This document shows positions 36,671-42,338 of a stretch of DNA of 46,495 bases, one piece after another. The notes under the pieces are model-generated. The model saw only the letters and a program-made list of their open reading frames with translations, ran no database searches and was not told where the DNA came from. Position numbers and translations under genes: made by a program. This DNA is from SAR92 clade bacterium. GTDB taxonomy: Bacteria > Pseudomonadota > Gammaproteobacteria > Pseudomonadales > Porticoccaceae. Each line of letters starts with the position of its first letter. The stretch's first letter is position 1. The stretch is from NCBI GenBank assembly GCA_014381985.1, contig JACNKP010000041.1:1-46495 (forward strand), in the 5' to 3' direction.

Positions 36671-37036
36671 ATGACCACACTTATAATTTATGCACTTGCA
36701 CTTGCACTCGTTCAGTTTTGGATTTTACCTGCTAGCCTCAACATCAATAACATCACATATCTGCTTTCAAACAGAGATGGGGATGTTGAAACCTCAGTCA
36801 CGTACAACAGAGTATCCAGAGCCGCCGCAAACTATAAAGAGAGTCTGCCCGCCTTCCTAGCGCTGTGTTTGCTATCTATGCATATGGATGTGGATTTAAC
36901 AACAACAGCAACTGCATGGTTGGCGTTAAGAGTTGCCTTTGTAGCCTGTTATACCTTTGGTATAACCCATCTTCGGACCCTGATCTGGCTAGGTTCTCTC
37001 GCCTGCCTTATTTCTATGGCCTTGCAACTAAGCTAG
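36671..37036 (+). CDS. MAPEG family membrane protein
   Basis: 121 residues with four predicted transmembrane helices, fitting the MAPEG family (membrane proteins of eicosanoid and glutathione metabolism; the role of bacterial members is mostly unknown). NRVSRAAANYKESLPAFLAL near 45 is the conserved loop with the N-x-x-E-type pattern and ALRVAFVACYTFGI is a later helix. It is divergent from the glutathione-dependent formaldehyde operon, so a glutathione link is possible but unproven. Confidence 0.8.
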   Translation: MTTLIIYALALALVQFWILPASLNINNITYLLSNRDGDVETSVTYNRVSRAAANYKESLPAFLALCLLSMHMDVDLTTTATAWLALRVAFVACYTFGITHLRTLIWLGSLACLISMALQLS

Positions 37037-37102: not shown

Positions 37103-37360
37103 TTAGCTTTTGATCAATGGCTTCCAATAAAGAATACCGAACGCTAAAACGGCAACAATATCAGTGCTACTAGTGCGACCAACAGCCTTTAGCTTAGAGT
37201 AGACCACCGCCAACTCAATAACATGTAACACCAAAAAAACGATCCCCGCCCAAAGTACTCCCGTGCCCAGCGAGCCGCCGAATGGCATGGCGAAGTTAAT
37301 GACAAACGCCAGCCAAAACCCAGCTAAAATATACATGTTAATCTGCGCAAATTTTTGCAT
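37103..37360 (-). CDS. DUF1145 family small membrane protein (YhhL-like)
   Basis: 85 residues with two or three hydrophobic helices. The length and the INMYILAGFWLAFVINFAMPFG opening followed by VLHVIELAVVY match the DUF1145 family, which includes E. coli YhhL; function unknown. GGGAG before the ATG. Single gene, convergent with the MAPEG gene. Confidence 0.75.
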   Translation of the reverse strand: MQKFAQINMYILAGFWLAFVINFAMPFGGSLGTGVLWAGIVFLVLHVIELAVVYSKLKAVGRTSSTDIVAVLAFGILYWKPLIKS

Positions 37361-37566: not shown

Positions 37567-38268
37567 ATGGGCACCATTGTCACCTACACCTATAATGATG
37601 GCGTAGCCACGATTTCCATGGACGACGGCAAGGCGAATGTACTGTCTCACACCATGTGGGAAGAATTAGAGGCCGCGTTTGATCAAGCTGAAAAAAGCGG
37701 TGCCATCGTACTACTCAAAGGAAGGGATGGCATATTTTCTGGCGGATTCGACCTTAAGGAAATGGCTAAAGGGCCTGAGCAAGCGATTTTGTTGACCGCG
37801 CGAGGTTCAAAGATGGCGCGGCGAATATTAGCATTCCCTACCCCGGTTATTGCGGTATCCACTGGCCATTGTATCGCAATGGGCGCTTTCTTGATGCTCG
37901 CCTGTGACTATAGAATTGGGACAGATGGTGCATTTAAAACGGGACTTAATGAAACTCTAATTGGCATGACCATGCACAATTTTGGGATTGAATTAGCTCG
38001 CTATCGCATCCCTGCAAATTACTTCAATCGATGCGTCATTAATGCTGAGATGTGGACTCCAACTGGAGCAATAACGGCTGGATTTTATGACCAAATAGTC
38101 CCTGCCGAACAGCTCGACCAAGCCTCACAAATGGCTGCCAAAGGATTTTCTCAATTAAATATGACCGCATTTAATGGCACTAAAAACAAGTCTCGTAAAG
38201 CCTTCTTGCAATTGCTTGACGAGTGCATTGAATCAGACCTAATCATTCCAGATGGACTGGCCATCTAA
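37567..38268 (+). CDS. Crotonase / enoyl-CoA hydratase family protein
   Basis: 233 residues, a little short for the family (about 260). Crotonase-fold features: ISMDDGKANVLSHTMWEEL at the N-terminus, the oxyanion-hole strand GRDGIFSGGFDLKEM (near 56) and GHCIAMGAFLMLACDYRIG. The usual catalytic glutamate position around residue 120 reads GLNETLIGMTM, so a glutamate is kept. It probably acts on an acyl-CoA, as hydratase, isomerase or hydrolase. Alone on its strand, AAGGA ribosome site. Confidence 0.85.
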   Translation: MGTIVTYTYNDGVATISMDDGKANVLSHTMWEELEAAFDQAEKSGAIVLLKGRDGIFSGGFDLKEMAKGPEQAILLTARGSKMARRILAFPTPVIAVSTGHCIAMGAFLMLACDYRIGTDGAFKTGLNETLIGMTMHNFGIELARYRIPANYFNRCVINAEMWTPTGAITAGFYDQIVPAEQLDQASQMAAKGFSQLNMTAFNGTKNKSRKAFLQLLDECIESDLIIPDGLAI

Positions 38269-38326: not shown

Positions 38327-38965
38327 TCAACCACTACCACTTTCAGCTGCCTGATCACCCGAGTTTAAAAACTTAATCAAGCCCAAGTAGAGCAGCGGTG
38401 TCAATAGCAGCCAGGGCACCTGACTACTCAGCCGTAACGTTCGATCATTGATCTCGAGTAAAACTGGGTCAAACCAAGACCCAAGCGGGGACAATGGCGC
38501 CCATGAGAGTGGTTTCCCTTCGCTCAATTGATCATGATATAGAAACATTTCTACTAAGATATTCTGGCCTATAAAGATCACTAAAAGCAGACCAAATACG
38601 CCCCAGTCCCATTGTCTATAGATAGAATTTCGACGCCCCATTGCTAACCAAACCAATAACAAGCTACCGCAACAAATTGTACCTGCATCTGCCAACGAAT
38701 TTAGTAATCCATTGATATGCAGTGGAAGCAACTGATTTAAAATGTCGACTCGACGAACCGTAACGCTATCCCCAGCAACCAAGCCATAGTTGAACCATAA
38801 TTCCCAGCCAAAGGCGCAAATGATAAACATAGTTATGTAGAAAGGAAGCACCCACGCAGGAATAGACTTACGAATATGTAACGTCGGGATGAGGATCAGC
38901 GGCACCAAAGCAGAACAGTACACCACTACCACGAGACGAATCTGCTCAAATGTCAAAATATCCAA
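38327..38965 (-). CDS. Hypothetical polytopic membrane protein
   Basis: 212 residues; I do not recognise the family. About five hydrophobic helices are visible (near 8-28, 36-54, 92-110, 124-142, 183-200), so an inner-membrane location is likely. A start at TTG (38965) is implied because no ATG lies before the first helix; GGGG lies about 10 nt upstream. The N-terminus has a small-loop HIRKSIPAWVLPFYITMF segment. It is convergent with the crotonase gene. No function can be assigned. Confidence 0.6.
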   Translation of the reverse strand: MDILTFEQIRLVVVVYCSALVPLILIPTLHIRKSIPAWVLPFYITMFIICAFGWELWFNYGLVAGDSVTVRRVDILNQLLPLHINGLLNSLADAGTICCGSLLLVWLAMGRRNSIYRQWDWGVFGLLLVIFIGQNILVEMFLYHDQLSEGKPLSWAPLSPLGSWFDPVLLEINDRTLRLSSQVPWLLLTPLLYLGLIKFLNSGDQAAESGSG

Positions 38966-39093: not shown

Positions 39094-39885
39094 TTAATTA
39101 TTGTCCCAATTGGTATACAAGTTCTTTGCCGCAAAACTTCTGGGGTTCTCACAGGTATAAACCTCTCCTGTTATCGCCTCAGCTTCAGCACTAACCTTGT
39201 GATAATTAAACGCCATCTCGCCCCTGGCTGCATAAGTCTGGAAATAAAACAAACTGATGAAGTCATAGTCAGTTGATGTCTGACCGAGATAAGGGAGAAT
39301 ATAATTAACACCGTAACCCTTAAGGCCTACTGACGCGACAAGCTCGGCAGCTGACCGCTCAGCAGCCACCGCATCATCTAACGTTTTGCCGTCATTTAGA
39401 GAACAGTCCGCATATTGAACTGGCCTTCTCGGATCCATTCCCATCGATTCGTCCCAAGCTTGCACAACTCTTAGCTGGAATGTTGCAAAGTTTGCGTTAC
39501 AGGTGTGGGGTGACTTAAGGTTTGGATGCTTATCTTGAAATTGATTGAGATAAACTCCCCAATCTTTGTACATCTCCCGCCCATTAGGCCAGTGCCCGAC
39601 AATTATATGGGTATAGTCGCCCATGCTTGCCCCTGCATGTACAGGTGTTAACAGAGTTTGGTTGTATTTCACCCCATTTTCAGCAGCGAACGTGCCGTAT
39701 TTTTGGGAATATTTATCAACATCTTTTAGTGTCTTACCTTTATTTAAAGTACAGAATTGATATTCGGCACGAAGGTCACTAGCGCCTTCAGGACCAGAAG
39801 CAGCTTCTGTCTCTTCATGATGATCGGCGAACGCCAACGCCGAGGTAAATAGGCACAACGGAACCAATAAAAATCGTCTAAACAT
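39094..39885 (-). CDS. Secreted tandem-domain protein with paired cysteines (unknown family)
   Basis: 263 residues. A signal peptide is cleaved after AFA (about residue 20), leaving DHHEETEAASG. The mature protein is two copies of one domain with a period of exactly 116: C45/C129 and C161/C245, each pair 84 residues apart, and each domain opening C[TS]LNxGKTL. The halves also share a mid-domain DY or DYDF strand. The fold may be a ferredoxin-like dimeric alpha/beta barrel, by inference. Divergent from a relative at 40215-40997. I recognise no named family and propose no function. Confidence 0.8.
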   Translation of the reverse strand: MFRRFLLVPLCLFTSALAFADHHEETEAASGPEGASDLRAEYQFCTLNKGKTLKDVDKYSQKYGTFAAENGVKYNQTLLTPVHAGASMGDYTHIIVGHWPNGREMYKDWGVYLNQFQDKHPNLKSPHTCNANFATFQLRVVQAWDESMGMDPRRPVQYADCSLNDGKTLDDAVAAERSAAELVASVGLKGYGVNYILPYLGQTSTDYDFISLFYFQTYAARGEMAFNYHKVSAEAEAITGEVYTCENPRSFAAKNLYTNWDNN

Positions 39886-40214
39886 AATGTGTCTCCAGTA
39901 AGTAGATGACTAAGTACAGGCAGTCATAGTCGAACTTACATAGATGGCGAAAAGAAGTAAAGAATTATAAAAGCAGATATATGTCATTAGATAAATATTA
40001 ACGTAAAAGTTACCCCGCTGTCCTATTGGCTTTTCTCCCTATAATTCAGATCTAATGGAAGTCTTACTCTAGTGAAAACTTCGATTTGCTCCTTTCTTGA
40101 TTCGACCATTTATTCAGCTATGATTAGTTATATGTATTCTCTCGATATAATAATGTCTATGGATTTTGTATTGCAGTATTAAACAGACCATCAAACTTCA
40201 AATAAGGATAGACC
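39886..40214. other. Divergent intergenic region between the two tandem-domain protein genes
   Basis: 329 bp, A+T-rich, no gene. It holds a promoter-like sequence for the plus-strand gene (40097-40124) and, on the minus strand, a diverged relative with TATGAC at 39928-39923 preceded by GTTCGAC. No palindrome or repeat of note was seen otherwise. Confidence 0.6.
40097..40124 (+). promoter_or_regulatory. Promoter-like element a (TATTCAGC-TATGAT type)
   Basis: TTGATT (40097-40102), a 16-nt spacer ending TATTCAGC, then TATGAT (40119-40124), 90 bp before the secreted protein gene at 40215. The spacer end is shared with elements at 41836 and 42471, which is beyond what -35/-10 matching alone would give. 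Confidence 0.6.
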
Positions 40215-40997
40215 ATGAAATTAATAAAACTTAGTAGCCTATTTAGTCTCTTTATTCTAATGAACCTTTCTTGTTCAACAGTCAATGCTGAACCAGCTGA
40301 CGCAAGTTGGGAAGCAGGCCATTTTTATAATGAATTTCTGGCATGCACAGCAGGCCCTGACTATTCAAAAGAAGATATGGACGTAATGATTGCCGAATTT
40401 AATACATTAAATCTATCTAATGAAATTACTTGGATTGGTGGTTATGCTCCAATTAAAGGGAAAAACAGCAATTCAAATGGGTGGTGGGAAATTCAATGGA
40501 CCTCACAAGACGCGGCTGAGGCTGGATGGCAAGCATGGATGACGGACAAAAAAGCCCAAGCGTGGGATGAAAATTATAGAAATGTTTTAGACTGTGACAA
40601 TACTACTATTTTTGGTTATGAGGGCCATTTCCACACACCAGAAAGTATTGCTCTTAAAAGCTGGGATAAGTTCGCAGCAGCAGAAATCGCGTGTAAATTT
40701 AATGAGGGTAAAGGCAGAGAAGATCTTAAAGCTAATGTAGAGCAATTTATTCAATGGCTTGAAACTAACGACAATGGCGAGCAATTCTCTTTTGGAATTT
40801 ATAATCCAGTCGGTGAAGATCAAGCAGATTTCTATTGGTTTAATTGGCATACAGACTTTGATTCCATGGCACGAGGTACTGCAAATTGGGAAGAGAATGG
40901 AAAGGCGATGCAAGCTAAGATAAATGCCACGGCCACCTGCAGCGACCCTAATTTATATAACGGTGGCCAATTTTATGCTTCGGATTCAGCAGAGTAA
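40215..40997 (+). CDS. Secreted tandem-domain protein, relative of 39094-39885
   Basis: 260 residues with a hydrophobic N-terminus (a lipobox-like LSC at 18-20 or signal cleavage after VNA near 25). Two domains follow: C44/C127 and C160/C242, spacing 83 and 82, period 116. The second domain starts CKFNEGKGREDLKA, close to CTLNKGKTLKDV and CSLNDGKTLDDA of the divergent gene. Tryptophan-rich strands (WWEIQW, FYWFNW) fill the mid-domain position. Probably periplasmic or outer-membrane; both cysteine pairs could form disulfides. Not recognised as a named family. A strong terminator follows. Confidence 0.8.
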   Translation: MKLIKLSSLFSLFILMNLSCSTVNAEPADASWEAGHFYNEFLACTAGPDYSKEDMDVMIAEFNTLNLSNEITWIGGYAPIKGKNSNSNGWWEIQWTSQDAAEAGWQAWMTDKKAQAWDENYRNVLDCDNTTIFGYEGHFHTPESIALKSWDKFAAAEIACKFNEGKGREDLKANVEQFIQWLETNDNGEQFSFGIYNPVGEDQADFYWFNWHTDFDSMARGTANWEENGKAMQAKINATATCSDPNLYNGGQFYASDSAE

Positions 40998-41023: not shown

Positions 41024-41055
41024 ATATATAGGAGGCATTGCCTCCTATATATTTT
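41024..41055. terminator. Strong terminator between 40215-40997 and the EF-hand gene
   Basis: A 13-bp stem, ATATATAGGAGGC (41024-41036) with 41040-41052, loop ATT, then TTT. On the minus strand an A-rich flank makes it usable by the convergent EF-hand gene as well. Confidence 0.85.
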
Positions 41056-41896: not shown

Positions 41897-41921
41897 AATA
41901 TTTATGACAAGGAGAATTAGA

Positions 41922-42338
41922 ATGAAACTTAAATTACCAATAATTGCCATACTTTTAATAACTGCCGCCAATATAAATGCCGCTCACCATGAAGAAGATG
42001 AAAAATTAGCAGCACAAGGCTTGATCTCATCAGAGGTTTTTGATCTAGCTGGCGAAATGGATTTATACGTAGAGAAATATGCTTCTTGTGGCGCCAGTAA
42101 AGGTGATAAACATATGCATCCATATGGAACGCTTGTATATATGCTTGATGGCCAATCTGATACTAATGTTTCAGGTGAATTTCAATCTGTAACTAAGGAT
42201 GAGTATTACTTTGAACCATCTGGTTGGGTTCATGGCGGCGAAGATAATGCCCCTAAGGTTTCGGATGATCAGTGCAGAGTGTCTTTAGTAATCAGAGTTG
42301 GCAAGAAGGGCGAAGCGCCGACAGTATTTGTTAAGTAA
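41922..42338 (+). CDS. Secreted cupin-like protein
   Basis: 138 residues from the ATG at 41922 (AAGGAGA 7 nt upstream). Signal peptide to about residue 20, mature end AHHEEDEKLA. A cupin-like barrel is suggested by KHMHPYGTLVYMLDG (H64, H66) and YYFEPSGWVHGG (H104); the glutamate of the classic motif is not where expected, so metal binding is uncertain. C56 and C118 may form a disulfide. It follows promoter-like element b and is followed by a terminator. Substrate unknown. Confidence 0.75.
   Translation: MKLKLPIIAILLITAANINAAHHEEDEKLAAQGLISSEVFDLAGEMDLYVEKYASCGASKGDKHMHPYGTLVYMLDGQSDTNVSGEFQSVTKDEYYFEPSGWVHGGEDNAPKVSDDQCRVSLVIRVGKKGEAPTVFVK

Follow-up and report, generated by a model that had tools for sequence, protein, structure and literature searches.

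Two adjacent genes of a SAR92 clade bacterium encode old paralogues of an undescribed exported protein family with a duplicated, cysteine-paired domain

Genes A and B lie next to each other in a 46,495-nucleotide stretch of DNA from a SAR92 clade bacterium (the whole stretch is hereafter the window) and are two old paralogues of an undescribed exported family, found here mainly in Gammaproteobacteria. We document its domain of ~105 residues, present in two copies each in A and B, the duplication of this domain, the family that shares it, the paired loss of its cysteines, and the frequencies of its N-terminal motifs under a simple export rule. The features of the two genes are as follows, and a search of Rfam returned no match within the window.

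39094..39885, minus strand: gene A, encoding an exported protein of 263 aa with two domains, from the side of the family tree on which signal peptidase I signals predominate
39826..39885, minus strand: signal peptide of A, residues 1-20, from sequence and a loose rule, with predicted cleavage after AFA
39817..39825, minus strand: predicted mature N-terminus of A, Asp-His-His, with the ATCUN pattern X-X-His, at the predicted cleavage site
39466..39774, minus strand: domain 1 of A, residues 38-140, with Cys45 and Cys129
39112..39429, minus strand: domain 2 of A, residues 153-258, with Cys161 and Cys245
40215..40997, plus strand: gene B, encoding an exported protein of 260 aa with two domains, from the lipoprotein side of the tree
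40215..40289, plus strand: signal peptide of B, residues 1-25, from sequence, with a degenerate lipobox NLSC at Cys20 and an alternative signal peptidase I site VNA↓EP
40326..40625, plus strand: domain 1 of B, residues 38-137, with Cys44 and Cys127
40668..40979, plus strand: domain 2 of B, residues 152-255, with Cys160 and Cys242
41024..41052, plus strand: terminator-like hairpin behind B, weak (three in the scanned region versus a mean of 1.7 in shuffles)

Domain architecture and duplication

An earlier sequence-only reading of the window had proposed that each gene encodes an export signal followed by two copies of one domain, and this was borne out for A and B. Simple rules recognize an export signal, of either the signal peptidase I or the lipobox kind, in A, in B, and in most members of the family. 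In A the signal is clearly of the signal-peptidase-I type, read from the sequence as ALAFA↓DHHEE. The lipobox of B, NLSC, violates the lipobox rule at −3, though B groups with lipoproteins in the tree. Cysteines are at residues 11, 45, 129, 161, and 245 of A and at residues 20, 44, 127, 160, and 242 of B, with Cys11 of A and Cys20 of B falling within the signal peptides. The repeat period of 116 residues given by the same reading is exact (45 to 161 in A and 44 to 160 in B), as are its cysteine spacings of 84/84 in A and 83/82 in B. Each protein is made of two homologous halves that have a Cys near the start and a second Cys ~80–90 residues on.

Profiles of 50 N-halves and 51 C-halves, taken from 51 distinct members, match each other over 104 columns (hhalign; Prob 99.3, E 9.9e-21). 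The N-half HMM matched 44 of 51 C-halves at E<1e-3 versus none of 1,020 shuffled C-halves, and the C-half HMM matched 44 of 50 N-halves at the same threshold. The C-half HMM matches the N-half of A at E 8.6e-11 and that of B at 4e-6; the N-half HMM matches A's own C-half at E 0.0023 only. On a tree of 65 halves, which has few columns and many unresolved forks, the N/C label requires two changes and a single origin is possible. The match between profiles and the tree of halves support a common origin for the four copies carried by A and B, as had been proposed. Because N- and C-halves are nearly completely separated in the tree, the internal duplication most likely predates the split between A and B. 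Single-domain members (open frames of 142 aa in L222, 134 aa in L090, and 138 aa in L106), each with a single cysteine pair behind a start that resembles a signal peptide, show that the domain is an independent unit.

Family membership and distribution

We gathered 81 distinct members from loci L001–L121, of which 75 are full length; the other six (fragments, short or single-domain rows) were excluded from the cysteine and tree counts. Across 43 aligned members, 15 Pfam families matched at E<=1, none of them in more than five members. The family with matches in five members is LPAM_1, a lipoprotein attachment-site model (best E 0.0024). VanY matched three (best E 0.027) and the best E overall, 0.0023, was that of a phage spanin in one member. 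In NCBIfam, the 43 members had no match at E<=0.01, and A and B had none even at E<=10. Neither Pfam nor NCBIfam has a family that explains A, B, or their 41 relatives, which agrees with the earlier view that the domain belongs to no named family, and profile searches did not place the two proteins in unrelated known families. The titles and abstract openings of open-licence PMC literature showed no mention of the family.

Some candidate matches were rejected. Set down to chance were the matches of A to Pfam TNT (E 0.082; 13.8 bits, with the cut-off at 27) and of B to UspA1 (E 0.82), and also those of A to polyubiquitin-type and beta-2-microglobulin PDB chains (best E 0.00019, with no single stretch of that match passing), which are not recovered with profile A1. 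A tblastn relative from Bdellovibrionales (L013) was dropped because neither half HMM matches it at E<=10.

Six family members, A, B, and four others, were found in the genome of the window (2,516,332 bases in 82 contigs), and a genome of 1.3 Mb (G703) has four family matches. Searches with profile A1 place the family in at least 21 of 341 genomes of the order (at least 10 of 131 genera), at least 5 of 321 genomes of the class sample, own genome included, and at least 2 of 398 genomes of the phylum sample, namely its own and G957, which has the single-domain L106; these figures are minima, as no more than 6–8 candidates were scored in each genome. Within the taxonomic family, A alone as query matched 24 of 98 genomes and B alone 34 of 98, in 3 of 14 genera each. 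The closest named relatives of A are from MAGs of Porticoccaceae (L010, 71%; L012, 76%, a fragment) and of the SAR92 clade (L011, 71%). Plasmid proteins searched with A, phage proteins searched with B, and viral contigs searched with B and one paralogue yielded no match.

At L115 7538-8518 (G349) and L116 6273-7848 (G201), family genes lie, by eye, between rpoC and a fusA-like elongation factor, which is an odd neighbourhood for exported proteins. Two adjacent copies occupy this site in L116, and G349 also has a second copy. In G703, L113 336-764 lies 9 bases upstream of a family gene and encodes a protein of 142 aa that begins like a signal peptide; it matches the family model weakly (E 3.8e-4) and is absent among domain-model matches at E<=0.1.

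Cysteine pairing

Cys161 is present in all 75 full-length members and Cys245 in 97%, the two exceptions being L078, which is ended early by a stop, and L103, in which the second C-half Cys is shifted. All four cysteines are found in 65 of 75 members (62 by script plus three, L023, L038, and L028, whose second Cys is shifted). The N-half pair is absent in nine (eight by script and L103 on inspection), a loss that needs three changes on the tree, and in none of the 75 does a one-Cys remnant of this pair persist. Since the pair is lost jointly and never as one Cys, the pattern is that predicted for a disulfide within each half and not for disulfides between halves, and it supports the cysteine pairing put forward earlier. 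In L103 (from G703), where the usual N-half pair is absent, there are two other N-half cysteines 33 residues apart, which perhaps form a different disulfide.

N-termini on the two sides of the tree

The midpoint-rooted tree of 75 members splits 33/42 with support of 100/99. On B's side, a lipobox precedes the domain in 31 of 33 members; the exceptions are B itself (NLSC) and L048, where VSC stands at the edge of an open frame and no Met precedes it. The 42 rows on A's side comprise 23 with [AG]↓D-x-H, 17 with other N-termini, and two that are lipobox-like, and the D-x-H label requires only seven changes on the tree. Outside of these 42, L222 (single domain) and L224 also have [AG]↓D-x-H. Many of the 17 others have Gln as the first residue after the likely cleavage (AQES, AQRP, AQQE, AQEA, and others).

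The N-terminus of serum albumin, Asp-Ala-His, is an ATCUN motif. PMC12929937 defines this motif as Xaa-Zaa-His in which Zaa is not Pro. The predicted mature start of A, Asp-His-His, which depends on the predicted cleavage site, conforms to X-X-His with a second residue other than Pro. To the family and to a background of other open reading frames, from which family members were removed, a single loose export rule was applied alike. Of 81 family proteins tested, the rule judged 45 to be exported, and 23 of these have an acidic first residue together with His at position 3. The background has 4 such cases among 139 exported ORFs (3 of 82 in a sample from the window's genome, 1 of 47 in G703, and 0 of 10 in G189). 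The Fisher p of 3.6e-13 is descriptive only, being inflated by the kinship of members. At other mature positions given by the rule, His occurs in family proteins at position 2 in 12, at positions 4 and 5 in none, and at position 6 in one. The possibility that exported proteins in general start with Asp-x-His was rejected, as the background did not show it. What is new here is the occurrence of a predicted Cu(II)/Ni(II)-binding pattern at the predicted mature start of just over half of the rows on A's side, and that the mature end of A is a metal site is, as read from its sequence, a fair hypothesis.

Two unrelated exported proteins, encoded at 41904-42338 of the window and at L135 19256-19819, have His-His-Glu-Glu at or beside their predicted mature start. 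The former has a match to Cupin_2 that is below the cut-off of that model.

Fold

Structure models of A and of mature B, built on alignments four and five rows deep, have mean pLDDT of 45.3 and 44.1 and pTM of 0.37 and 0.40, respectively. In these low-confidence models, the order b-a-b-b-a-b is complete in the first half of A and the second half of B and partial in the other two halves. The cysteines in the model of A are in E39-47/E127-129 (Cys45/Cys129) and E156-163/E243-251 (Cys161/Cys245).

Foldseek matches in the PDB are led for A by 3f44 (E 2.4e-3), 2pgc, coproheme decarboxylases, and chlorite dismutases, and for B by similar kinds of proteins (best E 7.2e-3), all of which we take to be two-domain dimeric alpha+beta barrels. 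Of the 50 rows listed per model, chains of chlorite dismutase and coproheme decarboxylase make up 26 for A and 27 for B; the listed rows are many chains of few proteins. Neither model has a match at E<=0.001, query-normalised TM-scores in the listed rows are 0.15–0.31, and other folds (Csy4, CutA, and KH) are among the matches. Profiles A1 and A7 matched no PDB chain at E<=10.

The known proteins that come closest each differ from A and B. The marine metagenome protein 2pgc (~205 residues), presumably two ferredoxin-like halves in one chain, ranks second for A over 236 columns and 19th for B, but it has no profile-level sequence similarity and its TM-scores, from low-confidence models, are only 0.26–0.34. 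A putative monooxygenase of Lactobacillus acidophilus, 3f44 (210 residues, taken as two-domain), ranks first for A and fourth for B, but it lacks a sequence match, and the family shows no similarity to ABM profiles. Chlorite dismutase and coproheme decarboxylase presumably also have two ferredoxin-like halves in one chain, whereas the 24 best-conserved columns in the alignment of 75 members of the family of A and B include no His. The ABM domain (PF03992), which we assume to be of roughly the same size and strand/helix order, is not among the Pfam matches of the 43 members at E<=1. Kinship with ABM by profile was rejected as well: three ABM alignments of 28–29 rows each, from one set of loci, gave hhalign probabilities of 0.1–0.4%, level with those of 20 column-shuffled nulls, whereas one ABM alignment recovers another at 100%. 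The probability for ACT against the domain profile was 0.1%.

The alpha/beta barrel suggested by the sequence-only reading is plausible, in that leading Foldseek matches and a partial strand order speak for it whereas poor models, the absence of a significant match, and the ABM profiles speak against it. On the models, an alpha+beta barrel is the fold that we favor. Each half would most likely be a ferredoxin-like b-a-b-b-a-b half of a dimeric alpha+beta barrel, and the two halves would form a pseudo-dimer within one chain. The cysteines of each half would sit near the end of predicted strand 1 and at the start of the predicted last strand, positions that agree with the favored fold. A ferredoxin-like sheet has the strand order 4-1-3-2, which makes strands 1 and 4 antiparallel neighbours, so each half would form a single disulfide across these strands in the periplasm.

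Possible function

The best-conserved columns of the 75 members are mostly Cys, Pro, Trp, Gly, Asp, and Glu, and the rest varies strongly between paralogues. Highest are C161 (100%), C245 (97%), P81 (95%), and the Trp mapped to residue 95 of A (92%), with G166 (88%), D208 (88%), and E41 (83%) further down. His, Lys, and Arg are all absent from the 24 best-conserved columns. From this lack and the strong variation between paralogues, we infer a role in ligand binding and not a single chemistry, with the caveat that the conserved acidic residues D208, E41, and D171 could also be functional. The neighbours of family genes, examined by eye, are varied and indicate no common ligand or pathway. Our leading reading, held at somewhat less than even confidence, is that A and B are binding proteins, either periplasmic or lipid-anchored, whose barrel is pseudo-dimeric and locked by disulfides. 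The pocket of this barrel would accommodate different small ligands from one paralogue to another, and the proteins would not be enzymes of one fixed chemistry, and on A's side the predicted Asp-x-His N-terminus would add a possible Cu(II)/Ni(II) site. Fold, disulfides, and the binding of ligands and metal are proposed here from the patterns described above. We rank a binding protein ahead of both an enzyme and a protein whose A side chiefly binds copper.

That the proteins are periplasmic enzymes with the active site in the tandem barrel, of the cofactor-free oxygenase or heme kind (like ABM, chlorite dismutase, or coproheme decarboxylase), is unlikely. The leading Foldseek matches are named as such enzymes, 3f44 as a putative monooxygenase and more than half of the listed rows for either protein as chlorite dismutase or coproheme decarboxylase, but low-confidence models weaken these matches themselves. 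The lack of His, Lys, and Arg among the best-conserved columns leaves no sign of a family-wide axial heme ligand. There is also no profile similarity to ABM, and a PF03992 search of the same genomes picks out true ABM proteins as a separate set.

An equally minor candidate is that proteins on A's side are periplasmic copper (or nickel) binding proteins, in which Asp-x-His would act as an ATCUN site like that of albumin, with the disulfide-locked domains as the protein body. The frequency of [AG]↓D-x-H on A's side, its presence in L222 and L224, and the enrichment of an acidic first residue with His at position 3 over background ORFs argue for this role. Against it, 17 of 42 rows on A's side have other N-termini and two are lipobox-like, B's side is mostly lipidated (lipobox), and no copper gene was seen by eye among neighbours. 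In addition, the motif may be inherited rather than selected, and cleavage sites come from a simple rule, a stricter first form of which missed A. Combining this role with the preferred one, the family could be an undescribed periplasmic copper- and ligand-handling system of mainly marine-type Gammaproteobacteria, in which a locked tandem barrel has an albumin-like copper N-terminus and paralogues are tuned to different ligands. This combination is speculative, and we give it somewhat less weight than either rival.

Genomic arrangement

A and B are divergent neighbours separated by 329 bp, and the sequence-only reading had presented them as a divergent pair. As a unit, the pair did not hold up. 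The two genes are on separate sides of the tree. When 98 genomes from the taxonomic family were compared, several of those with orthologues being draft and incomplete, only that of the window (G000) had close orthologues of both. Orthologues of A (69–77% identity) are in G081, G069, G083, and G089, two of them contig-end fragments, and those of B (47–65%) are in G055, G054, G068, G051, G060, G024, G013, and G094. No homologue of B was found within the 12–13 kb around the A orthologues L010 and L011.

In G055, homologues of 36671-37036 (95.9%), 37103-37360 (87%), 37567-38268 (88%; an enoyl-CoA hydratase), and 38327-38965 (84%) are in kept order, with other genes inserted among these conserved neighbours. 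Its B orthologue (66%) adjoins the 38327-38965 homologue on the minus strand, which is the place of A in the window, and there is no A within that 14.8 kb. The gene at 38327-38965 of the window encodes a 212-aa protein, membrane-like by eye, with no Pfam match at E<=1. A second short stretch like the enoyl-CoA hydratase of the window (56% over 71 aa) is at L117 8496-8708 in G055, beyond three inserted genes, two of which are FAD-dependent-oxidoreductase-like by eye.

Given that orthologues do not overlap outside of G000 and that B is in A's place in G055, the head-to-head placement looks accidental and is probably a local accident of two old paralogues. A functional divergent pair (e.g., a receptor and its partner) with a shared promoter region, which adjacency and divergence alone would favor, is largely refuted and very improbable: orthologues are not shared, A's place is taken in G055, and the one promoter-like site between the genes is weak (9/12 match), the scanned region having fewer sites than shuffles (2 versus 5.1).

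Significance

The analysis defines an exported family that lacks a Pfam or NCBIfam model. Several copies are present even in small genomes, and with four in the 1.3-Mb G703 and six in the 2.5-Mb G000, the family probably matters to these cells. It is a natural test case for disulfide pairing, and the predicted Asp-x-His N-terminus is a testable metal site. If Asp-x-His binds copper, the family would bear on periplasmic copper handling in such bacteria.
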